The notes beneath the pieces were generated by a model. It ran no database searches. It saw only the letters and a list, made by a program, of their open reading frames with translations, and was not told the DNA's origin. A DNA stretch of 64,000 bases from Amycolatopsis camponoti (GTDB taxonomy: Bacteria; Actinomycetota; Actinomycetes; Mycobacteriales; Pseudonocardiaceae). How positions within the stretch are numbered: the first letter of the stretch is position 1; every line of letters starts with the position of its first letter. The stretch lies in assembly GCF_902497555.1 (NCBI RefSeq), contig NZ_CABVGP010000001.1:3328501-3392500 (forward strand). The letters run 5' to 3'. The position numbers and the translations under genes are program-made. This document shows, piece by piece, positions 8,827 through 25,943 of the stretch.

Positions 8827-9084
8827 GGCCACCCCTTTCCGCTTCGGCGCGAAGGGTCATGTACTCACACGGAAACGAGATTGGCAACCGCCGGGCCTGC
8901 GTCCGGACCCGGTTCTGTCATGCCGGGGCCAAGGGTCGCACACATCTTTGTCACGCGTCCGACAAGCGGCGGAACACTCACGGCCGCAAGGGTTTCCGGA
9001 ATTCGATTTGTGATCCCGGCCCGTATCTTCGCGGCCCATTCCGTTGTTAGCGTGATCAACAGGGGTGTGCGGAAGGAGAACGGG
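8827..9084. promoter_or_regulatory. Divergent promoter region between PucR and the lipid locus
   Basis: 258 bp with lower GC than the coding DNA and no gene. An imperfect dyad TGTT-N9-AACA lies at about 9044-9060, close to the MMPL ribosome site AAGGAGA (9073-9079). It is a plausible place for regulator binding, but nothing matches a known consensus well. Confidence 0.35.
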
Positions 9085-11079
9085 ATGACGGCCGTCGTTT
9101 CGTGGTGCTTCCGCTGGTCCGGCCTGGTCGCGGCACTGTGGCTGACGGCGCTGGCGGGGCTCGTCGCCGCCGTCCTGCACACCGGCGCGGACTTCCGCGA
9201 CACGGTGGACCTGCCCGCCGCCGACAGCACCGCCGCGGCCCGTCTGCTGCACCGCACCGGCGCCGAAGAACGCGTGGTCGTCCACGTGCCGGACGGCCCG
9301 GTCGACACCGGCACCGGCCGCGCCCGGCTCGCCGCGTTCGCCGCCCGGCTGGCGACGATTCCGCACGTCGTGGCCGTGGGCCCGCCGCCGGGCCAGGTGT
9401 CGGCCGACCACCGGACCGCGGTCCTGCCCGTCCGGTTCGACGCGCCGGCCGCCGACCTCGGCCAGGGCACCGCGGACGCCTTCGCCGACGTCGTCCGCGG
9501 TGCCGGCGACCTCACCGCCGGCGCGACCGGAGAGCTGGCCGCGATGACGGCGGCCGCGCCCGACCTGGGCAACGCCGCGATCGGCCTGCTCGCCGCGGCC
9601 CTGGTGCTGCTGGTGACGTTTCGCTCGGCGGCGTGCGTCCTGCTCCCGGTCGTCACGGCGTCGGTGTCCGTCGGCTGCGCGCTGGCCGCGGTCACGCTGT
9701 TGTCGCACGTCATGACCGTCCCGAAGATCAGCACCGAGATCGCCGCGCTGCTGGGCCTCGGGGTCGGCGTCGACTACGCGCTGTTCGTGCTCACCCGCTT
9801 CCGGCAGGGCCGCCGCGAAGGCGCGGAAACCGCGGCGGCACTGGCCGTCGCGGCGGCGACGTCGGGTCGCAGCGTGGTCTTCGCCGGGGTCACCGTCTGC
9901 GTCTCGCTGGCCGGGATGCTGACCGTCGGTCTGCCGTTCCTCGACGGGATCGCCGTCGCCGCCGCGGTTTCCGTGCTGCTCACCGCGACCGCCGCGCTGA
10001 CCCTGCTGCCCGCGTTGCTGCGGCCGGTGGCGGCGCGGATGCGGATCCCGGCGGAGGGGAGCGGCCGCCGCTGGGCCGGGCTCGCGCGGTCGGTGACCGG
10101 GCGGCCGGGTCCGTACACGCTCGCCGCGGTGCTGGTCGTGGCCGTGCTCGCGCTGCCGATGACCGGCCTGCGGTTCGGCGTGCCGGACGCCGCGCTCGAC
10201 CCGCCCGGCAGCGTCACGCGGACGGCCGCCGAACTGCTCCGGGACGGGTTCGGCCCGGGCGCAGACGCTCCGCTGCTGGTGGTGGGCACCGGCGACCCGT
10301 CGCTGGGGACGCTGCGCGAGGCGCTCCTCGCCCGCGCCGACGTCGGCCCGCCCGCGACGCTGCCCCACGGCGGCTGGCTCCTCACCGTCACCCCGCGCAC
10401 CGCGCCCGGCGACCCGGCCACCGGCGAGCTGCTGACCTGGACGAGGGCGATGGTCACGACGATCGGCGGCCCGGACACGCACGTCGGCGGGCTCGTCGCG
10501 GCCCGAGCCGACTTCTCCGCGGCCATCACCGCGCGGCTCCCGCTGTTCCTCTTCAGCGTCGTCGGCATCTCGGTGCTGCTGCTGGCCTGGGTGTTCCGGA
10601 GCGTGGTGATCCCGCTGACGGCGGCGGTGATGAACCTGCTGACCGCGGCCGCGACGACCGGCGCGGTCGTGTTCGCCTTCGGCGGGCCGATCGAGCCGTA
10701 CCTGCCGGTGTTCCTGTTCGCCGGCCTGTTCGGCCTGTCGATGGACTACGAGGTCTTCCTCATCGCGCGCATCCAGGAGGCGTGGCGCCGCCGCGGTGAC
10801 ACGCGGGCCGCGGTCGTCGAGGGCGTCGCGGCGACCGGCCGGACCATCACCGCGGCCGCGCTGATCATGGCGCTGGTGTTCGTGGCGTTCGCCTTCGTGG
10901 ACGCGCGTGTCGTGCGGGAGGCCGGGACCGGGCTGACCGTCGCGGTGCTCTTCGACGCGGTGGTCGTCCGGTGCGTGCTGGTCCCGGCGGTGATGGCGTG
11001 GTTCGGCGAGGCCAACTGGTGGTTCCCGCGGCGCTCGCGCGCCCCGGCCGCCCGCGAACTGGTGGGGAGCGCGCGATGA
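9085..11079 (+). CDS. MMPL family (RND) lipid transporter
   Basis: A 664-residue transporter with two repeats, each a membrane helix, an extracytoplasmic loop and a bundle of helices. The proton-relay Asp motifs are present: GVGVDYALFVLTRFRQG near residue 227 and LSMDYEVFLIARIQE near residue 552. MMPL proteins export lipids or lipid-linked molecules across the inner membrane in actinobacteria. This one is shorter than mycobacterial MmpL3 and lacks its long C-terminal tail. ATG 9085 follows AAGGAGA. The stop overlaps the MFS start (ATGA), so the two are translationally coupled, and the position before the FAAL/PKS genes suggests export of their product. An upstream in-frame extension to 7561 is antisense to the pucR gene and was not accepted. 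Confidence 0.88.
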   Translation: MTAVVSWCFRWSGLVAALWLTALAGLVAAVLHTGADFRDTVDLPAADSTAAARLLHRTGAEERVVVHVPDGPVDTGTGRARLAAFAARLATIPHVVAVGPPPGQVSADHRTAVLPVRFDAPAADLGQGTADAFADVVRGAGDLTAGATGELAAMTAAAPDLGNAAIGLLAAALVLLVTFRSAACVLLPVVTASVSVGCALAAVTLLSHVMTVPKISTEIAALLGLGVGVDYALFVLTRFRQGRREGAETAAALAVAAATSGRSVVFAGVTVCVSLAGMLTVGLPFLDGIAVAAAVSVLLTATAALTLLPALLRPVAARMRIPAEGSGRRWAGLARSVTGRPGPYTLAAVLVVAVLALPMTGLRFGVPDAALDPPGSVTRTAAELLRDGFGPGADAPLLVVGTGDPSLGTLREALLARADVGPPATLPHGGWLLTVTPRTAPGDPATGELLTWTRAMVTTIGGPDTHVGGLVAARADFSAAITARLPLFLFSVVGISVLLLAWVFRSVVIPLTAAVMNLLTAAATTGAVVFAFGGPIEPYLPVFLFAGLFGLSMDYEVFLIARIQEAWRRRGDTRAAVVEGVAATGRTITAAALIMALVFVAFAFVDARVVREAGTGLTVAVLFDAVVVRCVLVPAVMAWFGEANWWFPRRSRAPAARELVGSAR

Positions 11080-12473
11080 CCCGGCGGACCCTGGTGCTGA
11101 TCGCGCTCGGCGCCTTCGTCACGACCCTGGACAACACCATCGTCGCGGCCGGCGCGCCCTCGATCGCCCGCGATCTCGGGCTCGACCTCGGGACGCTGCA
11201 GTGGGTCGCCCTCGGCTACATGCTCCCGTTCGCCGGCCTGCTCCTGGTGGCGGGCACCCTGATCGACCGCTGGGGCCGGCGCCCGGCGCTGCTGGCCGGG
11301 CTGCTCGCGTTCGGGATCGGCGCGGCCGCCGGCGGGCTCGCCGGGGCGACGAGCCTGCTCGTCGCCGCCCGGGTGCTGCAGGGCGCGGCGGCCGCGTTCC
11401 TGGTGCCCGGCCTGCTCAGCCTGCTGCGGTCGAACCTCGACGCGCGGGGCCGGACGCTCGGCGCCGCCGTGTGGACCGCGTGCCTGGCCGCCGCGCTGGC
11501 GCTGGGCCCGGCGCTCGGCGGGCTGCTGAGCGAATACCTCGGCTGGGCCTGGATCTTCTTCGTCAACCTCCCGTTCGTGGCGGCGATGCTCGTGCTGCTG
11601 CCGGGGACGGTGCCGGCCGGCCGCGAACCGCCTGGACCGCGTCCGGCGATCGGGGCGATGACCGTCGTGACGGCCAGCCTGGTCCTGCTCACCGCGGCGC
11701 TCGTCGAACTCGGTGAGAACCCTCGGGCCGGGGTCGCGCTGCTCGCCGCGGGCCTCGCGCTCGGCGCCGGGTTCGTGCTCCGGGAGCGCCGGGCGCGTGA
11801 CCGGCTGGTGCCGGCGGACCTGACCGGCAACCGGGTGTTCGCCGGCTCGCTCGCCGTGCAGGTGCTGTGGGGCCTGGGGATCTCGGGCATCGTCTTCTTC
11901 ACGCCGTTGCTGCACCAGGAGTTCCTCGGTCTCGACCCGGTCCGGGCGGGGTTGCCGCTGGCCCTGGTCGCGGTCGCCGTGGTGGCCGCGACGCCGCCCG
12001 TGCCGTGGGCGGTCGCCCGGTTCGGTCCACATCGGACGGTCGGCGCCGGGCTCGCCGTGGTCGCCGGCGGCCTGCTCGCGCTCGCCGCCGTGAACCACCT
12101 CCCGGCGATCGGCCCGCGGGTGCCCGGGCTGGTGCTGATCGGGGCCGGTTCGGCGTTCACGACGCCGTTGACGTCGCACGCGCTGGACGTCGTGGCCGAA
12201 CGGCGGTCCGGCACGGCGTCCGGGCTGCTCACGGCGTCGCGCGAGCTGTCGAGCGCACTGGGGGTGGCGCTGATCGGCGCGGTCCTGACGGCGGTCCGGG
12301 CGATCCGGCTCGACGCGGGCGCGCCGGCGGGAGTGGCGCTGGCCACGGGGTACACCGCCGGCCTCCTCACCGCGGCCGGGTTGACGCTCGCCGGCGCGCT
12401 GCTGGCCGTGCGCGTGGTGGGCGGCCCGTCCGCCGCGACCTCGTCGCCGCGTGACAAACGCGCGGTGCCGTAA
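11076..12473 (+). CDS. MFS drug/lipid exporter, DHA2 (14-helix) type
   Basis: 465 residues with about 14 hydrophobic segments. The N-terminal motif LDNTIVAAGAPSIARDL, motif A (GTLIDRWGRRPAL, near residue 61) and an antiporter motif C region (ALALGPALGGLL, near residue 140) identify an EmrB/QacA-type proton antiporter. It overlaps the MMPL stop by ATGA, so the two transporters are made together. Transport of the neighbouring pathway product or self-resistance are both possible; the substrate is not evident. The gene ends 92 bp before the FAAL start. Confidence 0.87.
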   Translation: MTRRTLVLIALGAFVTTLDNTIVAAGAPSIARDLGLDLGTLQWVALGYMLPFAGLLLVAGTLIDRWGRRPALLAGLLAFGIGAAAGGLAGATSLLVAARVLQGAAAAFLVPGLLSLLRSNLDARGRTLGAAVWTACLAAALALGPALGGLLSEYLGWAWIFFVNLPFVAAMLVLLPGTVPAGREPPGPRPAIGAMTVVTASLVLLTAALVELGENPRAGVALLAAGLALGAGFVLRERRARDRLVPADLTGNRVFAGSLAVQVLWGLGISGIVFFTPLLHQEFLGLDPVRAGLPLALVAVAVVAATPPVPWAVARFGPHRTVGAGLAVVAGGLLALAAVNHLPAIGPRVPGLVLIGAGSAFTTPLTSHALDVVAERRSGTASGLLTASRELSSALGVALIGAVLTAVRAIRLDAGAPAGVALATGYTAGLLTAAGLTLAGALLAVRVVGGPSAATSSPRDKRAVP

Positions 12474-12506
12474 TCCGTGTGCCGGTGAGTATCGGAATTC
12501 CCTTGA

Positions 12507-12534
12507 TTGACAACCGTCCCGGAGCAGCTATTCA
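12507..12534 (+). promoter_or_regulatory. Possible promoter of the FAAL-PKS-AccD operon
   Basis: In an AT-richer 92-bp gap, TTGACA (12507-12512) and TATTCA (12529-12534) are spaced 16 bp apart, 30-60 bp before the FAAL start. This suggests that the biosynthetic genes have their own promoter in addition to read-through from the transporters. Confidence 0.35.
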
Positions 12535-12565
12535 CTGCGCCGGTAAACGCTATCTGCGAGGAGCC

Positions 12566-14293
12566 ATGGAAACCATTTCCCAGCCGGTTCCCGTCACCGG
12601 GGAAACCATCGACGACCGTGCGTCCTTCGCGACCCTCCTGGGCCGGTGGGCCCGGGTGCTCGGCGACGAGGCCGCCGTGACCCACCTGGACCACCGCGCC
12701 GGCGGGGACGGCCGGGCGGTCACGCTCACCTGGCGCGAGCTCGACGAGCGGGTCAGCGCGGTCGCCGCGCGGCTGAGCGGGATCGCGGTCGCGGGGGACC
12801 GGGCGGCGGTGCTCGCCGGGCAGTCCGTGGACTACGTCGTCGCGTTCCTCGGCGCGATCCGCGCGGGGCTGGTCGCCGTGCCGCTGTTCGCTCCCGGCCT
12901 GCCCGGGCACGCGGGCCGGCTGGTCGCGACGCTCGCCGACTGCGCCCCCCGCGTCGTGCTCACGACGACCGGCGACCTCGACGCGGTGCACGCCTTTCTC
13001 GCCGGTGCGGCCGCACCGGCCGTGGTCGCCGTCGACGCGCTGACGCCGGCCGAACCGCGGGACTGGCTTTCGCCGGATCCGGACGCGGTGGCGTACCTGC
13101 AGTACACGTCGGGTTCCACGCGCTCGCCCGCCGGGGTCGTGCTGACCCACCGCAACGTCCTGGCCAACGCCCGCCAGGCGTGCACCGCCTACGGTGTGGA
13201 GAGCCGGACGACCTCGACGGTCAGCTGGCTTCCGCTCTTCCACGACATGGGCCTGATCCTCGGCATCGGCGCGCCGATGGTCGGCGGCATGGCGTCGGTG
13301 CTGATGGATCCGCTGGCGTTCCTCGAGCGGCCGTCGCGGTGGCTGCGCGCGCTGTCGGCCAGCCCGGGTGCGATCAGCGCGGCGCCCAACTTCGCCTACG
13401 CCTACTGCGCATCGCGGGTGTCCGACGCCGAGAAGAGCTACCTGGACCTGAGCCGGGTCGTCTCGCTGATCAACGGCAGCGAACCGGTGCTGCCGGCCAC
13501 GATCGCGAAGTTCGAGGCCGCCTTCGCCGAATGCGGGCTGCGGCCGGAGGTCCACCGGTCGTCCTACGGCCTGGCCGAGGCCACCGTGCTCGTTTCCGTG
13601 TCCGACGCCGGAAAACCGGCCCGGCAGGTCACGTTCGACCGCGACCGGCTCGCCGCCGGGACCGCGGTGCCGGCCGCGTCCGGGTCGACCCTCGTTTCGT
13701 GCGGCCGCCCGGCCGGGCAGCGCGTGCGGATCGCCGATCCCGGCACCGGCGAAGCTCTCGAGCCCGGCGAGGTCGGCGAGATCCGGGTCAGCGGCCCGAA
13801 CGTCGGTCGCGGCTACTGGGGCCGGGACTCGTCGGCGACCTTCGGCCTGCCGCCGCTCGACCCGGAGACCGGCGAGGGCTGGCTGGCGACCGGGGACCTC
13901 GGCGTGGTGTTCGAGGGCGAGCTGTTCGTCACCGGCCGGCTGAAGGACCTGGTCGTCGTCGACGGCCGCAACCACTACCCGCAGGACGTCGAGCAGACGG
14001 TGGAGGAGCACCCGGCCGTCCGGCCGCACTCGGCCGCCGTCTTCGCGATCGGCACCGACGGCGGGGAAGCCGCGGTCGTCGCGCTGGAACGCGCCAAGAA
14101 CTCCGACGCCGACGTCGCCGAGGTGACGGCCGCGGTGCGGTCGGCGGTGTCGGCCGGGCACGGCCTGCGCCTGCACGACGTCGTCGTCCTGGCGCCCGGG
14201 GAGGTGCCCCGGACGTCCAGTGGCAAGATCAGCCGGGCGCACAGCCGGGCGTCCTACCTGGACGGTGCGCTGGCCGGGCGGCGGCTCGGATGA
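12566..14293 (+). CDS. Fatty acyl-AMP ligase (FAAL), FadD32-like
   Basis: 575 residues. FAALs activate long fatty acids as acyl-AMP and hand them to a carrier domain instead of CoA. Landmarks: YLQYTSGSTRSPAG near residue 178, WLPLFHDMGLI, SYGLAEAT, VVDGRNHYPQD near residue 467 and PRTSSGKISR with the catalytic Lys near residue 552. From memory, VDGRNHYPQD, PRTSSGKI and the closing YLDG motif closely follow mycobacterial FadD32, the enzyme that loads Pks13. ATG 12566 has GAGGAG 3-8 nt upstream. Its stop overlaps the PKS start (ATGA), and that PKS begins with a carrier domain, so the likely job is loading a fatty acyl chain onto PKS Ser31. The chain length is unknown. Confidence 0.9.
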   Translation: METISQPVPVTGETIDDRASFATLLGRWARVLGDEAAVTHLDHRAGGDGRAVTLTWRELDERVSAVAARLSGIAVAGDRAAVLAGQSVDYVVAFLGAIRAGLVAVPLFAPGLPGHAGRLVATLADCAPRVVLTTTGDLDAVHAFLAGAAAPAVVAVDALTPAEPRDWLSPDPDAVAYLQYTSGSTRSPAGVVLTHRNVLANARQACTAYGVESRTTSTVSWLPLFHDMGLILGIGAPMVGGMASVLMDPLAFLERPSRWLRALSASPGAISAAPNFAYAYCASRVSDAEKSYLDLSRVVSLINGSEPVLPATIAKFEAAFAECGLRPEVHRSSYGLAEATVLVSVSDAGKPARQVTFDRDRLAAGTAVPAASGSTLVSCGRPAGQRVRIADPGTGEALEPGEVGEIRVSGPNVGRGYWGRDSSATFGLPPLDPETGEGWLATGDLGVVFEGELFVTGRLKDLVVVDGRNHYPQDVEQTVEEHPAVRPHSAAVFAIGTDGGEAAVVALERAKNSDADVAEVTAAVRSAVSAGHGLRLHDVVVLAPGEVPRTSSGKISRAHSRASYLDGALAGRRLG

Positions 14294-17200
14294 CCACGAC
14301 GGACGCGGTGCGCGCGTGGCTGCTCGCCCGGCTCGGCCCGGTCGACCCCGACCGGCCGCTGAACGAGACGGGACTGTCCTCACGGGACGCGACGGCCCTC
14401 GCGGCCGACCTCGGGCAGTTCGTCGGCCGGCCCCTGGACGTGACGCTCGTCTGGCAGTACCCGACGATCTCCGCGCTGGCCGCCCATCTGTCCACAGGGG
14501 AATCATCGCCGGTCGCGCTGCTCCCGGACGCCGTCGACGAGCCGATCGCGGTCGTCGGCCTCGGCTGCCGGCTGCCGGGCGGGATCGACTCGCCGGAGGC
14601 GTTCTGGCGGTTCCTCGAGGCCGGGGGTGACGGCATCGGCGACGTCCCCGAAGGTCGCTGGGAGACGTTCGCGCCGGCGTCGGACCTCGCCGGGTTGCCG
14701 CTGCGGGGCGGGTTCCTCGACGACGTCGCCGGGTTCGACGCGGAGTTCTTCGGCATCACCCCGCGCGAGGCCTCGGCGATGGACCCGCAGCAGCGGCTCC
14801 TGCTGGAGGTCGCGTGGGCGGCACTGGAGCACGCCGGGATCCCGCCGTCCGGGTTGCGCGGCAGCCGGACCGGTGTCTTCGTCGGGCTGTCGGCCACCGA
14901 GTACAGCTCGCTGACGATGACCGACGTCGGCGGCGTCGACGTCTGGTCGGGCACGGGCGCCGCCGCGAGCATCGCCGCCAACCGGCTGTCGTACCTGCTG
15001 GACCTGCGCGGACCGAGTCTCACGCTCGACACGGCGTGCTCGTCGTCGCTGGTCGCGGTGCACCAGGCGGTGCAGAGCTTGCGGTCCGGGGAGAGCGAGC
15101 TGGCGCTGGCCGCCGGGGTGAACGTGTTGCTGTCGCCCGGCATCACCGCGGGCTTCCACCGCGCCGGGGTGCTGGCCGCGGACGGGCACTGCAAGCCGTT
15201 CGACGCGGGCGCCGACGGCATCGCGCGCGGCGAGGGCTGCGGGGTGGTCGTGCTGAAGCCGCTGCGGGCGGCGCGCCGGGCGGGTGACCGGGTGCTGGCG
15301 GTCCTGCGCGGCAGCGCGGTGAACTCGGACGGCCGGTCCAACGGCATGACGGCACCCAACCCGCTGGCGCAGGCCGATCTGCTGCGTTCGGCCTACGCGG
15401 CGGCCGGCGTCGATCCGTCCTCTGTGGACTACGTCGAGGCGCACGGGACGGGTACGCCGCTGGGTGATCCGCTGGAGGCGGGAGCCTTGTCGGCGGTGCT
15501 CGGGCGCGAGGCCGGTCGTCCGCTGCTGCTGGGGTCGGTGAAGAGCAACCTGGGCCACCTCGAAGGAGCGGCGGGCATCGCGGGGCTGCTCAAGGTGGTG
15601 CTGGCGATGACGCACCGGCGGCTGCCGCCGAGCCTGCACTTCCGGGAACCGAATCCGCACATCGACTTCACCGGGCTGCGGGTGGTGACGTCGGGCACGG
15701 ATTGGCCCCGCTACTCGGGGACGGCGCGCGCCGGGGTGTCGGCGTTCGGCTTCGGCGGGACCAACGCGCACGTCGTGGTCGAGGAGTGGCCGGCGGCGTC
15801 GTTCCCGGTGCGGGTGGACGGGGTCGAAGGGCCATCGGTGTTCGCCCTGTCGGCCCGGTCGGCGGAGGTGGTGCGGGCGCGGGCGGCTGAGCTGGCGGAG
15901 TGGGTCGAGAGGTCGTCGGTGCCGCTGGCGGCGGTGGCGTCGACGCTCGCCCATCGGCGCGAGCACCTGCCGGTCCGTGGCGCGGTGGTGGGGGAGAGCC
16001 GTGAGGAGGTGGTGGCGGGGTTGCGGGAGCTGGCCGCGGGCGGCGGTCTGTATGGGCAGGGGTCGGTGGGTGGTCTGCCGCGGCTTGTCGTGAGTGAGAA
16101 ACAGTGTTCTAACCCTGTTTCTCACTCACGACCGGCCACGGGAGAGCCCGAGGTGGTCTTCGTCTTCTCCGGCTACGGCTCCCAGTGGTCCGGCATGGGA
16201 CGTCGGTTCCTGGGCTCCGAACCCGCCTTCCGCGCCGAGGTCGAGGCGCTCGATCCCGCCTTCCGCGCCGAAACCGGCGCCTCCCTCCGGGACCTTCTCG
16301 AGCGCGAACCCGGCGACCTCGCCACCACCCAGCTCGCCCTCTTCGGCATGCAGCTCGCCTTGGCCGCGCTCTGGCGCGCCCACGGCGTCACGCCGGCCGC
16401 GGTCCTCGGCCACTCCATGGGCGAGGTCGCCGCGGCCGTCGTCGCCGGGGCGCTCGACGTCCGCGATGGCCTGCGCGTCATGGCCACCCGGGCGCGGCTG
16501 CTCGCCGAACTCGACCGCAGCGGTGAAGGCGCCATGGCCGTCGTCGAACTGTCGCCCGCCGAGCTGGCGGACTTCCCCGAAGTCACCGTCGCCGTCTACG
16601 CGTCGCCCACCCAGTGCACCGTGAGCGGCGCCGCGGACCAGGTCGATGCCCTCGTCGAGCACGCCGAACGCGAAGGACGGCTCGCCCGGCGGCTCGCCGT
16701 CGGCGGAGCCGGGCACTCCGCCGCCGTCGACGCCGTGCTCGACCGCTTCCGCGGCGAGATCGGGACCATCCGGCCCGGGAAGCCGGAAATACCCTGCTAC
16801 ACCACGGTTCTCGACGATCCCCGGGAGACTCCGGCCTTCGACGTCGGCTACTGGGCCGCGAACCTGCGCCGTCCGGTGCGGTTCAGCCAAGCGCTGACCG
16901 CCGCCGCGGACGACGGGCACACCGTCTTCGTCGAAGTGTCCCCGCATCCCGTCGCCCTCGCCGCCGTCGAACAGACCACCGGCGAACACGCCCTGCCCTC
17001 CGCGAGCCGCCGGATCGACGAACGGGCCGCGTTCCTCACCAGCCTCGCCCGGCTGCACGTCCGCGGCCACCGCGGTGCCCTGGACGCCCGGCCCCGCACC
17101 GCGCCGGTCGACCTGCCGGGTCCCGTCTGGCGCCACGAGCGGTTCTGGCCGAAGCGCCGGACCCACGCCCACGGCGGGCACCCGCTGCTGGGTGTCCACA

Positions 17201-20200
17201 TCGAACACCCGGACGGCCACCTCTGGCGCGGCGACGTCGGCACCGAGGCACTGCCCTGGCTCGCCGACCACACCGTGCGGGGGACTCCGGTGTTCCCCGC
17301 CACCGGCTTCCTCGAACTGGCGCTGGCCGCCGCGCGCACCGGGCGGATCCGCGACCTCGAGCTCCGCGAAGTCCTGACCCTCGGCGAGCACACCGAGGTG
17401 ACGACCAGCCTCACCGGCACCGAGTTCGGCGTCCACGCGAAATCCGCGAACGGCGAGTGGGTCCGCCACGCGACCGCGAGGATCGACAGCGACGGCACTC
17501 CGGTGACCCCTCTGGGCGAGGTCACCGGCGAACCGCTCGACCTGTACCGCGTCCTGGCCGACCTGGGCCAGGACTACGGCCCGGCCTTCCGCGGCCTGCG
17601 TCGCGTCACCGCCGCCGGCGGGCGGGCCTCAGCGTCGATCGCCCTGCCCGACGCCGATCACCCCGCCTACCTGCTGCACCCCGCCCTCGCCGACGCCTGC
17701 CTGCACGCGCTCGCCGCGGCCGTCGGCGACGCGGACGCCCTCTACCTGCCGCTCACGATCGGCGAGGTGGTGCTCGCCGGCGAACCGCGGCGCGGCGTGC
17801 GCGTGGACGCCGCGCTCACGTCGAAGGACCCCTCCGGTGACGGCCTGCTCGGCAGCGTCCAGCTGGTCGACGCCGACGACGTCGTCCTGGTGGAGTTCCG
17901 CGACGTCTACTGCCGCCGGTTCCGCGACGCGGCCCTGGACCGGCTGCTGTTCGAGGCCACCTGGCAGCCGGTGGACCTGCCCGGCTCGCCGGAACGAGCG
18001 GAGCACTGGATCGTGCTGTCCGAAGTGGACGACGACCTCGGCACCGCCCGGCTCGGTGACCGGGCCGCGCTCACCGGCCTTCTCCGCGAAGGCGACGTGA
18101 CGGCGGTCGTCGTCCTGCTCGGCGGCGAGGACACGCCGGATCCGGGGCGGGCCGCGGCCCGCGTCGGCACCCTTTCGGAGGTCGTCGCCGAGCTGGCCGA
18201 ACTGCCGGCGCCGCCGAGGTTGTGGCTGGTCACCGCCGGGGCGCAGAGCGTCGAACCCGGCGAGCGCGGCGACCCCGACCTGGCCGCGCTGCGCGGGCTC
18301 GTCCGCGTCCTGGCCTTCGAGCACCCCGAACTGCGGGTGAGCGTCCTCGACTTCGACGCCGGCCCGGACCCGGCCCGCCTGTGGGTCGGCCAGCTGCGCG
18401 ACGAGGTCCGCGCGGACGGGCCGGACGACGAGGTGGCCTGGCGCGAAGGCGTCCGGCACGTGCGGCGGCTGGGCCGGCCCGAGCCGGCTGACGCGGTGCG
18501 CGAGCCGGTCCGTGACGGCGCCTACGTCATCACCGGCGGGCTCGGCGGCCTCGGCCTGGTCGCGGCGAAGTGGCTGGCCGACCGCGGTGCGACGCGCGTG
18601 GTGCTGAACAGCCGCCGCGCCGCCCCCGCGCCGGACCTGGGGATCGACGTCCGCGTCGTGCCCGGCGACATCGCCGGGCCCGGCACGGCCGAGGCGCTGG
18701 TCGCGGCGGCCGTCGACGGGGGTGTGCCGCTTCGCGGGGTGCTGCACGCCGCCGGAGTCCTGGCCGACGGCGCCGCGATCAGCCTGGACACCGGCGCGCT
18801 CGACACCGTCTGGCGGCCGAAGGCGCAGGGCGCCTGGCGGCTGCACGAGGCGACCGCCGGGAACGACCTCGACTGGTGGCTCGTGTACTCGTCGGCGGCC
18901 GCGCTGTTCGGCTCGCCCGGCCAGGCCGCCTACGCCACGGCGAACGCGTGGGCCGACGCCCTCGTCGCGTGGCGCCGGGCCCAGGGTCTCCCGGCGGCGA
19001 CGATCGGGTGGGGCGTCTGGGGCGAGGTGGGCGCCGCGGCCGGGTCGCGCAACCCGGTGCTCGAACCGCTCGGCACCGGGGAAGCGCTGTCGGCCCTGGA
19101 CGTCGTCCTCGCGCGCGACCGGGCGGCCACCGGAGTCGCCCGCGTCGACGCCGAAACGGTGCTGGAGCTGTTCCCGCGGCTGGCCGACCGGCCGTTCTTC
19201 GGACTGTTCACGCCGCGGACCGGACCGTCCACCTGGGACGGACTGGACACGGTGCGGACCCGATCACCCGAGATCGCGAGAAAAGCGATAGCCGACCACC
19301 TGGCCGGGATCATCGCGGGACTGCTGGGCTACGCCGAGGTCGAACGGGACGTGCCGCTCACCCGGCTCGGCCTCGACTCGCTGTCGGCGATGCGCGCGCG
19401 GGGCGCGGTGGAACGCGACTTCGGCCTGCCCCTGCCGATCCCGCTGCTCCTGCGCGGCGCCAGCCTCGCCGAGCTGGCGGGCCACCTCGCCGAGCAGGCC
19501 GGCTTCTGGACGGCGAAAGCCGAAGCGGTGACGGCCGGGCCGCGCGATCCGGCCGAACGGTGGGTCGCCCGGCACTGGCGGGCCGAGCTGGGCGGCCCGG
19601 AACCCGGCGTCCACGACGACTTCTTCGCCGTGGGCGGCGACCCCGGGCACGCGAGGCGGCTGCGAGCGGTGTTCGCGGAGCAGCTGGGTGCCGTGCCCGC
19701 CGTGGAACGGCTGTTCGCGACACCGACCGTCGCCGCGATCGCCGATCTGCTGCGCGCGGAACTGGAAGGTCACGGCGGTGGCCCGGTGCGGCTGCTGCGC
19801 GACGGCGTCGGCGAGCCGGTGTTCCTGTTCCACCCGGCCGGCGGCCCGACGAGCGTGTACCGCGAGCTGGTCCGGCTGCTGCCGGAAGGCCAGCCGGTGT
19901 ACGGGTTCGAGCGGATCGACGACGAGGACACGGTCGAGGCCAAGGCCGCCTGCTACGTCGAGCTGATCCGCGAGATCCAGCCGCAGGGGCCGTACCGCCT
20001 GGGCGGCTGGTCGTTCGGCGGCTGCCTGGCGTACGAGACGGCGCGGCGGTTGGACGGGCCGGTCGACCTCGTGTTCCTGATCGACACGATCCTGCCGCTG
20101 CCGGCGCCCGGGAAGCCGGCCGACCTGCTGCTGGACCGCTTCGACCGGTTCGCCGAGCACGTGTCGCGGACGTACGGCGTCCCGTTCGCGATCCCGCGCG

Positions 20201-20577
20201 ACACGCTGGCCGGGCTCGACGAGCACGCGCAGATCCGGTGGGTGATGGACAGTCTCGCCGAGACGGTCCCCGACCTCGGCGCCGGCGTCCTGCGGCACCA
20301 GTACGAGTCCTATGTGGACGCCCGGGTGGCCGAGCGGTACGCCCCGGAGCGGTACGACGGGCGAGTGCTGCTGCTGCGCGCCCGGGATCCGCACCCCCTG
20401 ACGACCACATTGGACCCCCGCTACCTGCGCACGGACGACACCCTGGGCTGGGACGAGTACTGCCCCGGCCTCGAAGTCGCCCGCGTCCCGGGCGACCACG
20501 TCTCGATGATCGACCCGCCGCACGTGACCGCGCTGGCCGCCGAGCTGGCGGCTCGACTGGGAGTGGGGGTGCGGTGA
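14290..20577 (+). CDS. Type I polyketide synthase, ACP-KS-AT-DH-KR-ACP-(inactive carrier)-TE
   Basis: 2095 residues. Domain order with visible catalytic residues: N-terminal ACP (GLSSRDA, Ser31; nearly the wording of the Pks13 N-terminal ACP); KS (Cys250 in DTACSSS, His385 in HGTGT, His423 in NLGH); AT (Ser709 in GHSMGE; GAGH at 806-809 where malonyl ATs have HAFH and methylmalonyl ATs YASH); DH (His994 in HxxxGxxxxP, Asp1135); KR (GGLGGLG near 1416, Tyr1548); ACP (Ser1697 in LGLDSL); a second carrier fold whose Ser is Pro1785 (GGDPGHA); TE (Ser1908 in GWSFGG, Asp1932, His2070). There is no ER. With the FAAL and carboxylase it should condense a fatty acyl starter with a carboxyacyl extender once, reduce and dehydrate the product, and release it by the TE. 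The KS-AT linker contains a translated 46-bp palindrome (residues 600-614). Overlaps on both sides show tight operon coupling. Confidence 0.92.
16087..16132. repeat. 46-bp palindromic element, copy 1, in frame within the PKS gene
   Basis: Arms of 22 bp around a CT centre. The outer 18 bp, GTCGTGAGTGAGAAACAG, and its complement match perfectly, and one mismatch lies in the inner 4 bp. It is read through in frame as [15 protein letters not shown] plus one nucleotide of the next codon, in the linker between the KS and AT domains. The same sequence occurs at 29686, 35913 and 58140, outside coding cores. Because 46 is not a multiple of three, the insertion must have carried extra bases or been compensated. 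Confidence 0.95.
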
Positions 20578-22154
20578 TGGACGACCTCACGCCGACGACG
20601 GCGTTCCGGATCGCCGACCTCGAGGCGCGCCAGGACGAAGCCGTCCGGATCGCCGAGAAGCGGGCCGTCGACCGGCAGCACGCCAAGGGCAAGCTCACCG
20701 CCCGGGAACGGATCGGGCTGCTGCTCGACCCCGGTTCGTTCGTCGAGCTCGACCAGCTCGCGCGGCACCGGTGCGGCGAGTTCGGGATGGACGCCAACCG
20801 GCCCTACGGCGACGGCGTCGTCACCGGGCACGGGACCGTCGACGGACGGCAGATCTGCGTCTTCTCGCAGGACTTCACCGTCTTCGGCGGCAGCATGGGC
20901 GAGGTCTCCGGCGAGAAGGTCCTCAAGGTGATGGACCTGGCCATGTCGCTCGGCTGCCCGGTCGTCGGGATCAACGACTCCGGCGGCGCGCGCATCCAGG
21001 AGGGCGTCGTCTCGCTGGCCTACTACGCCGAACTCGGCCGGCGCAACGCCCACGCGTCCGGGGTGATCCCGCAGATCTCGATGATCATGGGCCCGTGCGC
21101 CGGCGGCGCCGTCTACGCGCCGGCGATCACCGACTTCACCGTGATGGTCGACGAAACCTCGCACATGTTCGTCACCGGCCCGGACGTCGTGCACGCCGTC
21201 ACCGGCGAGCGGGTCACCGCGCAGGAACTCGGCGGCGCGGCCGTGCAGAGCGAGGTCGCCGGCAACGCCCACCACCGGGCCGCCGACGAGCAGGACGCCA
21301 TCGAGTGGGTGCAGACGCTGCTCGCGTACCTGCCCTCGAACAACCTCGACCCCGCCCCGGAGTACGCCGACGACACCAGCCCCGTCGTCACCCCGGCCGA
21401 TCTGGAGCTCGACCGGCTCGTGCCCGACTCGCCGAACCAGACCTACGACATGGCCGAGCTGATCTTCCGGCTCGTCGACGACGGCGACTTCACCGAGGTG
21501 CACAGCGCGTTCGCCGCCAACATGATCTGCGCGTTCGGGCGAGTGCAGGGCCGCACGGTCGGCATCGTGGCCAACCAGCCGCGCCACCAGGCCGGCGTCC
21601 TCGACATCGACGCGTCGGAGAAGGCCGCGCGGTTCGTGCGCTTCTGCGACGCCTTCTCGATCCCGCTGGTGACCCTGGCCGACGTCCCCGGCTACCTGCC
21701 GGGCAGCGACCAGGAGCGCGGCGGCATCATCCGCCGCGGCGCCAAGCTGATCTACGCCTACTCCGAGGCCACCGTGCCGAAGGTGACCGTGGTCGTCCGC
21801 AAGGCCTACGGCGGTGGCTACGCGGTGATGGGCTCCAAGCACCTCGGCGCCGACGTGTGCCTGGCCTGGCCGACCGCGGAGATCGCGGTGATGGGCGCGG
21901 AGGGCGCGGTGCAGGTGCTCTACCGGCGTGAGCTGGCCGAGCTGCCGCCGGAGCGGCGGGCCGCGGCGCGCCGGCGGCTCACCGAGGAGTACCGCAAGCG
22001 CCACACCGGCCCGTACCTGGCCGCCGAACGCGGCTACGTCGACGAGGTCGTGACGCCGTCGCAGACCCGGCTGCAGGTCGCGCGCGCCCTGCGGACGCTG
22101 CGGACCAAGCGCCAGACCCTGCCGGCCAAGAAGCACGGAAACATCCCCCTGTGA
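20577..22154 (+). CDS. Acyl-CoA carboxylase beta (carboxyltransferase) subunit, AccD5/PccB-like
   Basis: 525 residues. It transfers carboxyl from biotin to an acyl-CoA, making the malonyl-type extender. Both crotonase-like halves are complete: oxyanion-hole glycines [13 protein letters not shown] near residue 131 and [13 protein letters not shown] near residue 410. The C-terminus [10 protein letters not shown] is typical of actinobacterial AccD/PccB. ATG 20577 overlaps the PKS stop (TGATG). It holds the position of accD4 in the fadD32-pks13-accD4 operon, but by eye its sequence is closer to AccD5/PccB propionyl-CoA carboxylases, so methylmalonyl-CoA or a longer carboxyacyl-CoA are both possible products. 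The biotinylated alpha subunit is not in the window. Confidence 0.92.
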
Positions 22155-22165
22155 AGGAGACTCCG

Positions 22166-23134
22166 ATGAGAGCCACCCTGCTGATGCTGGCCGTCGTGGT
22201 CCTGCTGGCCAGTGGCGTGACCGCCGCCCAGGCGAGCCCGGTCGTGGCCGACGACGGCGCCAAAGTCGTCCAGGAGACCTGGCTCGACGCCCGGACCGTC
22301 GACCTGAAGATCGACTCCCCGGCGCTGGGCACCACCGGGATGGTCCGGCTGATCGTGCCGTCCGGCTGGGCGTCGCAGCCGACGCGGACGTGGCCGGTGC
22401 TGTTCCTGCTGCACGGCTGCTGCGAGCCGGTCGACTACCGGTCGTGGGACCAGTTCACCGACGTGAAGGCGTTCACCGCGAACAAGGACGCGCTCGTCGT
22501 GATGCCGACGGACGGCCCGGCCGGGATGTACACGAAGTGGTGGAACTTCGGGCTGTCGAGCAAGCCCGACTGGGACACGTTCCACACCGCGGAGGTCCGC
22601 CAGATCGTCGAACGCGGGTACCACGGCGGGACGCGCCGGGCGATCGCCGGGCTGTCGATCGGGGGCTACGGCGCGTTCGCGTACGCCTTCCAGCACAAGG
22701 GGATGTTCGCCGCGGCCGCGTCCTACAGCGGCGTGCCGAACACGCTCTACCCGGGGATCCCGGTCTGGATCATCGGCATCCTGGCCCGCGCCGGGATCTT
22801 CAACTACCTGAACCTCTGGGGCGACTCCTTCGGGATGCAGCCGATCTGGTCGTCGCACAACCCGTACGACCACGTCCAGGACCTGCGCGGGATGGCGCTC
22901 TACCTCTCCTGCGGCAACGGGCAGACCGGGCCGCTCGACCCGCCCGGGCAGTCCGACATCCTGGAACCGTCGGCGTTGCTCTCGTCCCGCAGCTTCACCG
23001 ACAAGCTGCAGCAGGCGGGCATCCCGGCGACCGTCGACTACTACGGGCCGGGCACGCACAGCTGGCCGTACTGGCAGCGGGCCCTGCACAACTCGTGGCC
23101 GGTGCTGGCCGGCGCGCTCGGCCTCCCCGCCTGA
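22166..23134 (+). CDS. Secreted antigen-85-like esterase/acyltransferase
   Basis: 322 residues with a signal peptide (RATLLMLAVVVLLASG, cleavage near AQA-SP). Alpha/beta hydrolase fold with nucleophile Ser164 in GLSIGGYGAF and His298 in GTHSWPYWQ. The segment THSWPYW, the LSCGNG stretch and the overall order match the antigen 85 mycolyltransferase/esterase family, which transfers acyl chains onto sugars outside the membrane. Start ATG 22166 has AAGGAGA; a GTG at 22151 would itself overlap this site. It begins only 11 bp after the carboxylase gene, so it is part of the lipid operon and could transfer or hydrolyse the PKS product. Simple carboxylesterase activity remains possible. Confidence 0.85.
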   Translation: MRATLLMLAVVVLLASGVTAAQASPVVADDGAKVVQETWLDARTVDLKIDSPALGTTGMVRLIVPSGWASQPTRTWPVLFLLHGCCEPVDYRSWDQFTDVKAFTANKDALVVMPTDGPAGMYTKWWNFGLSSKPDWDTFHTAEVRQIVERGYHGGTRRAIAGLSIGGYGAFAYAFQHKGMFAAAASYSGVPNTLYPGIPVWIIGILARAGIFNYLNLWGDSFGMQPIWSSHNPYDHVQDLRGMALYLSCGNGQTGPLDPPGQSDILEPSALLSSRSFTDKLQQAGIPATVDYYGPGTHSWPYWQRALHNSWPVLAGALGLPA

Positions 23135-23178
23135 GCCTTCCTTTGAATGATAGAGCTTTTCCCCCGATGGAGGTTGTG

Positions 23179-24393
23179 GTGAAGTCTGTCCTCTTGCGAC
23201 GAGTGCTGTCCGCACTCCTGGGCGTCTGCCTGGCGGCGCTGGGCGTCGTGGCGGCGAGCCCGCCCGCCGGCGCGGTGGCGGCGCCGATCCTGCCCGGCCC
23301 GTTCGACGACTCGTTCTACACGGCGCCGTCGCCGCTGCCGGCCGGGAAGCCCGGTGACGTCCTGCGCTGGCGGCCGGCGGTGCCGCTGCTGAACGCCGCC
23401 AACGCCGACGCCTGGCAGGTCATGTACCTCTCGACCAACGCCCAGGGCCGGCCGGACGCGGTCACCGGGACCGTCCTGGTGCCGAAGGGCAAGGACCCGG
23501 CCACCGCTCCGATCGTGGGGTACGCCGTCGGCACCCAGGGCCCGGCGTTCAAGTGCACGGCGTCCAAGGCGATGGAGCGGGGCACGCTCTACGACCAGCC
23601 CGCCATCAACGACTCGCTGTCCAGCGGGTACGCGGTCGCGGTGACCGACTACGAGGGCTACTCGCCGGCGACCGTGCCGACCTACATCACCGGGCAGTCC
23701 ATGGGTCCCGCCGTCATCGACTCGGTGCGGGCGGCGCAGAACCTGCCGTCCGCGCGGCTGGCCAAGTCGGCGAAGGTGATCTTCCAGGGGTACTCGCAGG
23801 GCGGCGGCGGATCGATGTGGGCGGGGGAGAAGCAGCCCTCGTACGCACCCGAGCTGAACGTCGTCGGCGTCGTCGCGGGTGGCGTGCCGGCCGACCTGAC
23901 CGAGGTCGCCAAGGGACTCGACGGGTACATCGGGTTCGGGTTCCTCGCGTTCGCCGCGGTCGGGCTCGACGCCGCGTACCCGGACCTGAAGCTGGATTCG
24001 TTCCTCAACGACACCGGACGGCAGCAGCTCGGTGACGCGAAGAAGAACGCCTGCGTCGCGGAACTCCTGCTGAACTACTCCTTCAAGAAGATCAGCGACT
24101 ACACGACGTCGAACCCGTTGAGCACGCCGCAGTGGCAGGCGCGGCTGGCGCAGAACAAGCTGGGCGCGAACCCGCCGCGGGTGCCGGTGTTCCAGTACCA
24201 CGCGAGCACCGACGAGATCGTCAACACCCCGCAGGCCGAGACCCTGCACCGGACGTACTGCGCGGCCGGCGTCCGCGAACAGTGGCAGACCTACATCTCC
24301 GACCACGCCACGGGAATCCTGGCCGGGAACGCGGACGCGCACCAGTGGATCGTCAAGCGCTTCAGCGGGGCGCAGGCGCCGTCCAACTGCTGA
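23179..24393 (+). CDS. Secreted lipase, LIP family
   Basis: 404 residues. A basic N-terminus (MKSVLLRRVLSALLGVCLAA) and an alanine-rich cleavage region near PAGAVAAP indicate secretion. The core matches secretory (Candida-lipase-like, PF03583-type) triacylglycerol lipases: nucleophile Ser206 in QGYSQGGG, Asp345 in STDEIV and His376 in DHATGI. The GTG at 23179 is preferred over the ATG at 23167 because GGAGG lies 5 nt before it. It follows the antigen-85-like gene by 44 bp on the same strand and faces the cutinase, with a strong hairpin between them. It probably hydrolyses extracellular lipid esters, perhaps recycling or editing the surface lipid. Confidence 0.85.
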   Translation: MKSVLLRRVLSALLGVCLAALGVVAASPPAGAVAAPILPGPFDDSFYTAPSPLPAGKPGDVLRWRPAVPLLNAANADAWQVMYLSTNAQGRPDAVTGTVLVPKGKDPATAPIVGYAVGTQGPAFKCTASKAMERGTLYDQPAINDSLSSGYAVAVTDYEGYSPATVPTYITGQSMGPAVIDSVRAAQNLPSARLAKSAKVIFQGYSQGGGGSMWAGEKQPSYAPELNVVGVVAGGVPADLTEVAKGLDGYIGFGFLAFAAVGLDAAYPDLKLDSFLNDTGRQQLGDAKKNACVAELLLNYSFKKISDYTTSNPLSTPQWQARLAQNKLGANPPRVPVFQYHASTDEIVNTPQAETLHRTYCAAGVREQWQTYISDHATGILAGNADAHQWIVKRFSGAQAPSNC

Positions 24394-24399
24394 GGAAGC

Positions 24400-24445
24400 C
24401 CGTGAACGGCACATCGGGGGAAGTCCCTCGTTGTGCCGTTCACGG
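24400..24445. terminator. Bidirectional hairpin terminator between lipase and cutinase genes
   Basis: Perfect 14-bp inverted repeat CCGTGAACGGCACA (24400-24413) and TGTGCCGTTCACGG (24432-24445) with an 18-nt loop. It occupies almost the whole 59-bp gap between two convergent genes, as expected for a shared terminator. Confidence 0.8.
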
Positions 24446-24452
24446 ATCGGGG

Positions 24453-25097
24453 TCAGACCTTGCTCGCGGCGAACGCGGCCGCGTCGGCGGCGTTCCCGCC
24501 GTAGCTCAGGTGGGCCAGGAAGTTCGCGCCGCCGGGCTGGCAGACCGGGTCGCCGTCGGCGCAGTAGTCCTTGGTGCGGCTCTGGTACGGGCCGGTCACC
24601 TGCCGGCCGATCGCGCGGATCGGGTTGCCGAACAGCAGCACCGCCGCGATCCGCGGGGCCAGCTCGGCCGGGATGGTCGCGACGATCGGGCCGCCGACGA
24701 CCGCGCCGTCGCTGCTGACGCCGAGCGAGTTGTCGACGACGTTGGCGCCCTGGGAGTAGCCGACCAGCACGAACCGCTGCTGCGGACAGGCCGCGGCCTG
24801 CGCCCGCACGTGGTTCACCAGGTCGGTGTTGCCCTTCTGCACCGACGCGGGCTCGCCGAGGTCGGCCGGGTAGTCGACGCGGTAGCCGCTGAGCGACCGC
24901 GGCCGCAGCTGGTTCTGCACCGCCTGGTAGACGGGGTCGCCGACGATGAGGCCGAGGGTGCCGGGCTCGAACGTGCCGCGGGCGACCGGCACGTCGATGT
25001 CGGTGCAGGGCGCGGCCGACGCCGCCGGTGCGGTGGCGACGGCGAATCCGACGGCGGCGAGGCCGACCGTAACGGCGGCGGAAAGCAGACGGCTCAT
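24453..25097 (-). CDS. Secreted cutinase family serine esterase
   Basis: 214 residues. A signal peptide (MSRLLSAAVTVGLAAVGFAVA, cleavage near ASA-AP) is followed by a cutinase-fold alpha/beta hydrolase: nucleophile in GYSQGANVV near residue 114, then CADGDPVC with the catalytic Asp and the FLAHLSYG segment with the catalytic His. Four cysteines fit the two family disulfides. Cutinases and mycobacterial Culp proteins hydrolyse ester and phospholipid substrates outside the cell. ATG 25097 was chosen because the longer frame to 25142 would put a charged stretch before the signal. It converges on the lipid operon and lies downstream of a TetR gene on the same strand. Confidence 0.88.
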   Translation of the reverse strand: MSRLLSAAVTVGLAAVGFAVATAPAASAAPCTDIDVPVARGTFEPGTLGLIVGDPVYQAVQNQLRPRSLSGYRVDYPADLGEPASVQKGNTDLVNHVRAQAAACPQQRFVLVGYSQGANVVDNSLGVSSDGAVVGGPIVATIPAELAPRIAAVLLFGNPIRAIGRQVTGPYQSRTKDYCADGDPVCQPGGANFLAHLSYGGNAADAAAFAASKV

Positions 25098-25140
25098 GGC
25101 TGATCTCACCTCTGGGTGCGGAGAAAACCGGAATGTCCGC

Positions 25141-25160
25141 AAACGCTTTCCCGAAAAGCG
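25141..25160 (-). terminator. Weak hairpin with T run downstream of the TetR gene
   Basis: On the minus strand, CGCTTT and AAAGCG form a 6-bp stem with a 5-nt loop followed by TTT, in the 136-bp AT-richer gap between the TetR gene and the cutinase. It may separate their transcripts. Confidence 0.35.
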
Positions 25161-25233: not shown

Positions 25234-25899
25234 TCAGGTGGCGCACGGCCCGGCGCCGACCCGGTCCAGCAGCGCGGGGTCGAGACCGCGCAGGGCGGCC
25301 ATGACGAACCCGGTGGCCAGCTCGCCCGCCGCGATCGGGTCGACGCCGGGGGAGTGGGAGACGTGCATCGCGGCCCGGCCGACCAGGCCGACCATCATCG
25401 CGGCGAGCAGGTCCGCGCCGGGCCCCGGCGTGCGGCCGTGAGCGCGCAGGTGCTCCCGGATCCGGTCGACGACGTGCGTGGTGACGGTGTCGGCGAGGGC
25501 GCGGCGCTCGTTCGACATCTCGTCGACGGCCGAGTCGAACAGCATCCGGAAGCCGGCCGGGTGGGCGCTCGCGTAGCTGAACATGGCCATCACGGCCAGC
25601 CGGACGCGTTCTTCGAGCGGGCTCGTGTCCGCCGTTTCGTAGGCGGTGAGCACCCAGTTCCGCACCGCGGCGACCTCCCGCGTCACGGTGGCGCGGAAAA
25701 GCGCCGCTTTGTCGCCGAAATGCGCGTACAGCGTCGGCTTCGTGGAGTCGGCGCGTTCCGCGATCAGGCCCATGGTCGCCTGCGCGTAACCGCGTTCGGC
25801 GAACACCGCGCGGGCGGCGTCGAGCAGTTCGCCGTCGGTGGGCCGGGCGGCCGGGCTCCGGCGGGTGCTGGATCGATCAGGGGAACTCGGCCGGCTCAT
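25234..25899 (-). CDS. TetR/AcrR family repressor
   Basis: 221 residues. The N-terminal DNA-binding helices are canonical (AARAVFAERGYAQATMGLIAERADSTKPTLYAHFGDKAALF), followed by an all-helical ligand-binding domain. It is divergent from the PucR-type gene at 25970. The 70-bp gap holds a perfect 20-bp palindrome that is almost certainly its operator, so it should control itself and the PucR gene, and possibly the cutinase behind it. The ligand is unknown; a lipid or CoA ester would fit the neighbourhood, but nothing in the sequence shows it. Confidence 0.88.
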   Translation of the reverse strand: MSRPSSPDRSSTRRSPAARPTDGELLDAARAVFAERGYAQATMGLIAERADSTKPTLYAHFGDKAALFRATVTREVAAVRNWVLTAYETADTSPLEERVRLAVMAMFSYASAHPAGFRMLFDSAVDEMSNERRALADTVTTHVVDRIREHLRAHGRTPGPGADLLAAMMVGLVGRAAMHVSHSPGVDPIAAGELATGFVMAALRGLDPALLDRVGAGPCAT

Positions 25900-25923
25900 A
25901 GCGGTGTACTGTACGGTCTCGCT

Positions 25924-25943
25924 GCTTTACCGCTCGGTAAAGC
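25924..25943. promoter_or_regulatory. TetR operator palindrome
   Basis: GCTTTACCGCTCGGTAAAGC: perfect 9-bp arms around CT. The core ACCG-n2-CGGT is a frequent TetR half-site arrangement. It lies between the divergent starts at 25899 (TetR) and 25970 (PucR). Confidence 0.75.

Follow-up and report, generated by a model that had tools for sequence, protein, structure and literature searches.

A locus related to the mycolic acid condensation system, with a reducing polyketide synthase, in Amycolatopsis camponoti

We describe a gene locus within a 64,000-nucleotide stretch of the Amycolatopsis camponoti genome (contig NZ_CABVGP010000001.1, positions 3,328,501 to 3,392,500; the whole stretch is called the window), which encodes a fatty acyl-AMP ligase (FAAL), a type I polyketide synthase (PKS), an acyl-CoA carboxylase beta subunit (AccD) and a secreted-looking esterase. 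These proteins are relatives of FadD32, Pks13, AccD4 and the PS1/Cmt/Ag85 mycoloyltransferases; the mycolic acid layer depends centrally on Pks13, FadD32 and Ag85, and Pks13, which carries out the final condensation of mycolic acid synthesis, is targeted by drugs. The locus had been noticed in a model's reading of the letters alone (the original prediction), and all the genes named there, from two transporters ahead of the FAAL to a cutinase at the far end, are present in the order and at the coordinates given, as judged from open reading frames (ORFs) and Pfam matches (Table 1). The end set for the locus, 25097, matches an internal ATG of the cutinase gene, whose full ORF extends to 25142. 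The start codons of the locus genes were checked, and a GTG at 12479 is a possible alternative start of the FAAL. The predicted overlap of the FAAL, PKS and AccD genes was borne out, with four bases shared at each junction, and the AccD and esterase genes overlap likewise. The motifs GLSSRDA, VDGRNHYPQD and PRTSSGKI were found exactly as quoted, while a third, carrier-like PP-binding match in the PKS (residues 1741–1835) is an addition to that reading.

Like Pks13, the synthase carries an N-terminal acyl carrier protein (N-ACP), a ketosynthase (KS), an acyltransferase (AT), a second ACP, a carrier-like domain that has lost its serine (psiACP) and a thioesterase (TE), in equal order; unlike Pks13, it contains a dehydratase (DH) and a ketoreductase (KR), as predicted, with complete catalytic residues. 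Among PDB entries, ACPs of the mycolate enzyme lead the matches to the N-ACP (43 and 39 bits), and Pks13 is both the best one-stretch match to the KS (496 bits) and the best match to the TE (166 bits, the next family reaching 86). Entry 7zma was rejected as best KS match, since it attains 640 bits only by summing two stretches and the single-KS entries 7zm9 and 7zmc score 324 and 322 bits. The predicted structure of ACP-psiACP-TE (mean predicted local distance difference test score, pLDDT, of 83) finds its best PDB match in the Pks13 TE, with template modelling (TM) scores to the target of 0.79–0.86 and 38–39% identity. The window PKS reaches 1281.6 bits with the NCBIfam model mycolic_Pks13 (NF040607), below the cut-off of 2100, and its intact DH and KR set it apart from the plan ACP-KS-AT-ACP-TE without reducing domains by which Pks13 is recognised.

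Table 1. Genes of the locus and domains of its synthase (positions in the window)
Feature	Position	Strand	Description	Basis
MMPL-family transporter	9085..11079	+	664 aa; candidate lipid exporter	PF03176 3e-70
Major facilitator superfamily (MFS) transporter	11076..12473	+	465 aa	PF07690
FAAL	12566..14293	+	575 aa from ATG; FadD32 relative	AMP-binding; FAAL tree
Type I PKS	14290..20577	+	2095 aa; N-ACP-KS-AT-DH-KR-ACP-psiACP-TE	
N-terminal ACP	14290..14529	+	GLSSRD, S31	top PDB matches are mycolate-enzyme ACPs 7wrp, 6c4q
KS domain	14527..15804	+	C250/H385/H423	structure search, KS tree, residue check
AT domain	16132..17154	+	S709, motif GAGH, H809	
DH domain	17161..18009	+	H994/D1135	PF21089, PF14765
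KR domain	18487..19209	+	B-type, D1493; K1511/S1535/Y1548/N1552	PF08659
C-terminal ACP	19252..19509	+	GLDSL, S1697	PF00550
psiACP	19510..19794	+	serine lost, GGDP, Pro1785	PF00550 3e-7
TE domain	19795..20574	+	S1908/D1932/H2070	PDB comparison, residue check, predicted fold
AccD	20574..22154	+	acyl-CoA carboxylase beta subunit; AccD4 relative; long-chain type pocket G155/A417	PF01039 2e-192
Esterase	22151..23134	+	secreted-looking; PS1/Cmt/Ag85 mycoloyltransferase relative	PF00756
Secretory lipase (LIP)	23167..24393	+	ATG at 23167	PF03583 8e-55
Cutinase	24453..25142	-	convergent with operon; ATG also at 25097	PF01083 3e-39

For comparison, 40 loci were chosen from match lists and five by name, and the window was added. 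The fetched loci comprise 16 with Pks13 (Nocardia and two Corynebacterium by name, 13 assigned by clade), 26 with a reducing synthase, and three with a non-reducing synthase outside the Pks13 clade (L133 from A. keratiniphila, L145 and L168) of the plan N-ACP-KS-AT-ACP-TE. The catalytic residues of N-ACP, KS, AT, ACP and TE are complete in all 27 reducing synthases (26 loci and the window). The psiACP lies directly ahead of the Pks13-type TE, as in Pks13, where a passage of PMC9210659 calls the corresponding fragment a cryptic ACP. No serine stands at its serine position in any of the 27 reducing rows or the 16 Pks13 rows, and two serines were found among the 60 proteins, out of the 120 best-matching ones, that the motif pattern fits. 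Because two scanned Pks13 psiACPs fall below the Pfam cut-off for PP-binding, the domains were compared by profiles: the window psiACP gave 97.7% with the corresponding region in six Pks13 loci, and its profile matched the solved Pks13 fragment 6c4v at 2e-7 and full Pks13 chains at 2e-9, with carriers of nonribosomal peptide synthetases outscoring Pks13 in this search.

Duplicates and short or broken matches were left out before trees were built. The full-length tree comprised 46 synthases and two outgroup starts (48 rows, 1467 columns); the KS, FAAL, AccD, esterase, TE-only and L145-free trees were quick searches with Shimodaira–Hasegawa-like approximate likelihood ratio test (SH-aLRT) support alone. 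The 16 Pks13 rows formed one clade in the full-length tree (100/100), with the window outside it. Pks13 joined L133 and L145 (99/99), and these joined the clade of the window (98/99), Pks13 thus being nested in the locus family, whose earliest branches are mostly reducing. A tree in which all non-Pks13 synthases were forced together was 29.6 log units worse and had a p of 0.012 in the approximately unbiased (AU) test, which presumes a group named beforehand; the topology with Pks13 outside all others was rejected on this value. Removal of the long row L145 left the grouping unchanged, and L133 and L145 also adjoin Pks13 in the unrooted TE-only tree.

The KS tree (74 rows out of 180 KS domains collected, window included) led us to reject a generic KS similarity as the source of the likeness to Pks13, with 28 other, hand-chosen KS lying outside the locus family and Pks13 (SH-aLRT 88); on the grouping of Pks13 with the locus family, the full-length tree was the stronger one. 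Closest among the outgroups of the KS tree is the first KS of the mycobacterial FAAL-PKS loci L004, L005 and L016. L004 resembles the window in having a FAAL beside an N-ACP-KS-AT start, but mycobacterial FAAL-PKS and MAS-type synthases lie outside the family in both the KS and full-length trees, and no Pks13-type TE match was present in the examined stretches of L004 and L016. These results support that the window PKS represents a lineage of the family inside which Pks13 nests, and they suggest that the mycolic acid enzyme may have arisen within this older family. The simplest reading of the trees would have DH and KR disappear on two occasions, once before Pks13 and L133/L145 and once in L168, where the tree position suggests an independent loss.

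The L133 locus (5848–12817; A. keratiniphila, G002, C30) holds a non-reducing synthase with its own FAAL and a linked esterase, that is, the Pks13 domain plan in a non-mycolate genus; in the tree, no synthases stand closer to Pks13 than this one and that of L145. L145 (8356–17531) has consecutive genes for a FAAL, a non-reducing PKS, a short-chain dehydrogenase/reductase (SDR; 14426–15289), an esterase and an MFS transporter. Both resemble the window in the FAAL, the N-ACP, KS, AT, ACP and TE, and the linked esterase, and differ from it by the absence of DH and KR and, in the fetched stretch, of AccD; L145 differs further by the missing psiACP and by the SDR between PKS and esterase. This SDR could act as a trans ketoreductase by analogy with CmrA, the trans ketoreductase for mycolates; against NCBIfam it matched general SDR models only, and we do not claim identity with CmrA. 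L168 (1454–12039, minus strand; 7463–18048 when turned), from a class-level genome, is a block of AccD, FAAL, non-reducing PKS, esterase and cutinase genes.

The FAAL and AccD trees agree with the PKS tree with moderate support. Solved relatives of the window FAAL include FadD23 and FadD32; its score of 499.3 bits stays under the cut-off of the FadD32 model (NF038339, 975), and it likewise misses that of the general fatty-acid–AMP ligase model (549 against 775). One FAAL clade (SH-aLRT 97) unites 28 locus FAALs, 16 FadD32 and five of the 15 other FAALs, the remaining ten falling outside; within it, FadD32 joins the FAALs of L133 and L145 (91) inside the locus FAALs. The window FAAL lies outside the FadD32 subclade and shares a clade with FadD32 as against other FAALs. 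In the AccD tree, locus AccDs and AccD4 stand together against the PccB, AccD5 and AccD6 types (SH-aLRT 92), and AccD4 forms a separate clade (100) that does not contain the window AccD. The closest characterised relatives of the esterase are mycoloyltransferases, with PS1 of Corynebacterium at 163 bits, Cmt1 at 80, Ag85A at 69 and the best other esterase at 55; these are also its best solved relatives, and the nucleophile and histidine regions align. The naming of the three core genes as fadD32-pks13-accD4 in the original prediction holds as regards relatedness and not as regards identity, the window genes being sister lineages of all three. The comparisons it proposed, of KS, FAAL and TE phylogenies with Pks13 and FadD32 and of synteny in Pseudonocardiaceae, turned out in its favour: the KS, full-length PKS and FAAL trees place Pks13 and FadD32 in or beside the locus family, and a grouping with the other FAAL-PKS modules compared was not seen.

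The pocket of the AccD bears on the second substrate. The closest solved relative is MccB (822 bits; PDB 5INF, 5ING, 5INI), the carboxylase beta subunit forming alkylmalonyl-CoA for stambomycin, which serves a macrolide PKS, unlike the window AccD, and is not among the AccD tree rows. Passages of PMC5187497 describe Asp421 of PccB as Ala in MccB, and Phe161, shared by every carboxylase beta subunit known to take substrates of up to four carbons, as Gly in MccB. The same pair occurs in the window AccD, with Ala417 at the Asp421 place and Gly155 at the MccB Gly161 place, so that it carries the large-acyl pocket residues that also mark AccD4. Ala occupies the Asp421 place in all 13 locus AccDs (12 loci and the window) and in all 16 distinct AccD4, and Phe occupies the Gly161 place in none of either (0/13 and 0/16). 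The PccB/AccB-like comparisons have Phe in 9/9, paired with Asp, Cys or Ile, and nine more distant carboxylases are mixed (four with Phe, one with Ala at the second place). These residues predict that the AccD would carboxylate acyl-CoAs longer than C4. The AT motif GA[GSA]H goes with the presence of an AccD gene, occurring in all 29 loci with AccD (16 of them Pks13 loci) and in five of the 17 without (p = 1.6e-7, kinship ignored); these five are all Actinomadura-like, and Actinomadura is not known to have mycolic acids. Because of the AccD pocket and the AT motif, a long extender, and hence an alpha-alkyl branch, is predicted.

Gene content was compared over the fetched stretches, most of which are about 20 kb, so that an absence there is no proof. 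The 26 reducing loci besides the window have a FAAL in 25 cases and the esterase in 22, and the three non-reducing loci have both throughout (3/3 each) and AccD in one. The mycolate loci show the order FAAL, Pks13, AccD, with one or more esterases of the Ag85/Cmt type nearby, ahead of the FAAL, in 14 of 16; the window likewise has its FAAL ahead of the PKS, the AccD after it with the same long-chain type pocket, and such an esterase nearby. A protein search with the PKS gave 7921 matches, of which the best 120 run from 90% to about 53% identity. Nearly all of these 120 that are named belong to Amycolatopsis, Actinokineospora, Saccharopolyspora, Kutzneria, Herbihabitans and Streptoalloteichus, with two labelled Streptomyces, and the closest to the window PKS, at up to 90%, are Amycolatopsis proteins. 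In the genus to which A. keratiniphila belongs (80 genomes; PKS-end matches at E up to 1e-40), the PKS end and the esterase each occur in 62 genomes, both together in 61, each without the other in one, and neither in 17; the Fisher value of 3e-15 is no true probability, because the genomes are related. The locus is therefore no one-off. A single PKS match was found in 18 of the 62 positive genomes and two to four in 44, and the esterase lies within 10 kb of 107 of the 115 PKS matches.

At the family level, the esterase occurs in 109 of 297 genomes (1e-30). Eight small genomes of this sample (G142, G197, G215, G230, G244, G267, G276 and G285; 4.2–5.2 Mb) have kept the PKS and a sole esterase match without linkage, far apart or on separate contigs, unlike Amycolatopsis. 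The order sample gave matches in 101 of 298 genomes at 1e-25; when the 99 strongest rows were split by identity, 30 genomes had the locus type, 53 the Pks13 type and none both, although both types in one genome could be missed because at most six candidates per genome were scored. The class sample gave PKS matches in 71 of 394 genomes and, at 1e-20, esterase matches in 85 of 394, mycolic acid bacteria being among them. We conclude with support that the locus, which has reducing domains, is homologous to the mycolate condensation system without belonging to it; it is frequent in one sample of an Amycolatopsis genus and scattered through the family.

The host group, soil bacteria, is reported to lack mycolic acids. 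According to a passage of PMC6194230, Pseudonocardiales have arabinogalactan and no mycolic acids, and PMC11004387 gives mycolic acids as absent from A. solani and an unidentified glycolipid as present; by kinship, the window host would also be without mycolic acids. The main text of PMC5984834, on Amycolatopsis gene clusters, does not contain the words "mycolic" and "lipid", PMC6171478 does not mention mycolic acids, and the homologues named in the relevant part of PMC9900942 are from other mycobacteria only. In searches of the open-access full-text literature, no earlier report of such a locus was among the papers listed.

Based on the domain content, the intact residues, the shared psiACP, the nested tree, the linkage of PKS and esterase and the AccD pocket, all obtained by computation, we propose for the locus an acyl condensation of the mycolate type, though not one that makes mycolates; taken as a whole, we regard this pathway as reasonably likely. 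We infer its chemical steps, chain lengths, acceptor and the location of its product. As in FadD32 and Pks13, the FAAL would adenylate a fatty acid and load it onto the N-ACP, from which the chain would pass to the KS cysteine. The AccD, together with a housekeeping biotin subunit, would carboxylate another acyl-CoA, one longer than four carbons, to judge from its pocket residues and tree position, and the AT, given these and its motif, would place the alkylmalonyl unit on the C-terminal ACP. One Claisen condensation by the KS would then yield an alpha-alkyl beta-keto acyl chain, a joining of two long acyl chains as in Pks13. The window PKS would thus work like Pks13 with a KR and DH of its own: the beta-keto group would be reduced and probably dehydrated in cis, unlike in Pks13, giving an alpha-branched 2-enoyl (or 3-hydroxy) chain. 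The Pks13-like TE may release this chain onto a polyol, the MMPL or MFS protein may export it, and the PS1/Ag85-like esterase may pass the acyl group to its final envelope acceptor, for which trehalose or arabinogalactan would be likeliest; the product would be a surface lipid. Pks13 would be the branch of the family that lost DH and KR.

Several observations weigh against this proposal. Eighteen rows of the full-length tree have an odd amino acid make-up, mostly Pks13 among those listed, the Pks13 branch is long (0.78), and the outgroup consists of two rows without the part from ACP to TE. The psiACP is missing in L145 and L168 and present as a worn copy in L133, and AccD was found in just 11 of the 26 other reducing loci. 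The raw scores of the AccD favour MccB (822 bits) and PccB (765) over AccD4 (535), and the node joining locus AccDs and AccD4 reaches an SH-aLRT of only 92, with 68 for the locus AccDs alone; the identification as a plain PccB that the scores would suggest is contradicted by the tree and the pocket residues. The non-mycolate esterases of the locus family form their own clade (100), apart from those of the mycolate loci, and while 109 of 134 esterase matches lie near a PKS match, 25 lie near none. A second Amycolatopsis-type genus sample has any match at 1e-20 in nine of 19 genomes, five of them at 69–72%, and the family sample is patchy, with the PKS in 86 of 297 genomes (1e-40).

This patchiness outside the main genus means that an accessory product also fits. 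The locus could belong to specialised metabolism and turn a fatty starter into a short, reduced lipid or lipopolyketide, with no envelope role, the MFS or MMPL pump exporting the product and the esterase trimming or activating it. The MFS genes beside many related PKS genes in the fetched loci, the adjoining lipase and cutinase, and the multiple PKS matches per genome would agree with this. On the other hand, the locus is kept in 62 of the 80 genomes of one genus sample, the PS1/Ag85-like esterase stays close to nearly every PKS match (107/115), and the PKS is nested with a condensase dedicated to an envelope lipid, and we regard this alternative as rather unlikely.

It is improbable, in our judgement, that DH and KR are idle and that the synthase makes a mycolate-like acid with a 3-oxo or 3-hydroxy group in the manner of Pks13. 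The erosion of DH residues in relatives (H kept in 21/27 and D in 23/27 reducing synthases), which also counts against the proposed pathway, and the existence of non-reducing relatives, one of them (L145) with a separate adjacent SDR, point in that direction, but the window DH and KR have complete catalytic residues, and the KR residues K, S and N are kept in all 27 reducing synthases and Y in 26. The gain of a mycolate locus by transfer from a mycolic acid bacterium, with later fusion of DH and KR, would explain the shared partners (FAAL, AccD, Ag85-like esterase and cutinase, the family to which Rv3802c beside fadD32 belongs), but it is already disfavoured and very improbable, as Pks13 nests in the family and not the reverse, a tree that sets Pks13 apart from all the rest is rejected, most of the earliest branches are reducing, and no genome among the strongest order-sample rows, at up to six candidates each, holds both types.

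Mycolate-type condensation may be older and wider than mycolic acids, a reading that we offer tentatively. The envelope of Amycolatopsis and its relatives would possibly carry a 'dehydro-mycolate', an alpha-branched, unsaturated coat that the reducing synthase produces and PS1/Ag85-like esterases attach; this, too, is more conjecture than expectation. Mycolates would then have come about through loss of DH and KR in one lineage, and the non-reducing A. keratiniphila synthase might still show the DH/KR-less state, a notion we hold equally loosely. Relatives of Pks13, FadD32 and Ag85 are clustered in a group reported to be without mycolic acids, and the simple difference is the DH and KR in cis; with an intermediate form known, a non-reducing synthase that is once accompanied by a separate SDR, the origin of mycolic acids becomes testable. 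For these much-studied producers of antibiotics, the locus also predicts an envelope lipid that has yet to be described.

As to the neighbouring genes, the top NCBIfam model for the MMPL protein is MmpL3 (NF052608) at 179.8 bits, short of its cut-off of 1400, and cutinases like that of the window also occur in L129, L137 and L168. PucR-type regulators (HTH_30) stand on both flanks of the locus (7591–8832, minus strand; 25838–27136, plus strand), the latter adjoined by a TetR gene (25234–25899, minus strand). Farther on, 28248–44580 contains genes for an SDR, a CoA-transferase, a luciferase-like protein, an acyl-CoA dehydrogenase, an acyl-CoA ligase and an enoyl-CoA hydratase, and from its Pfam matches looks like a cluster for the breakdown of steroids or acyl-CoAs. 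The window also encodes a 647-aa protein fusing trypsin-like peptidase and DNA/RNA non-specific endonuclease domains (52708–54651, minus strand) and a protein with DnaJ and NERD (nuclease-related) domains (2491–3597, minus strand).

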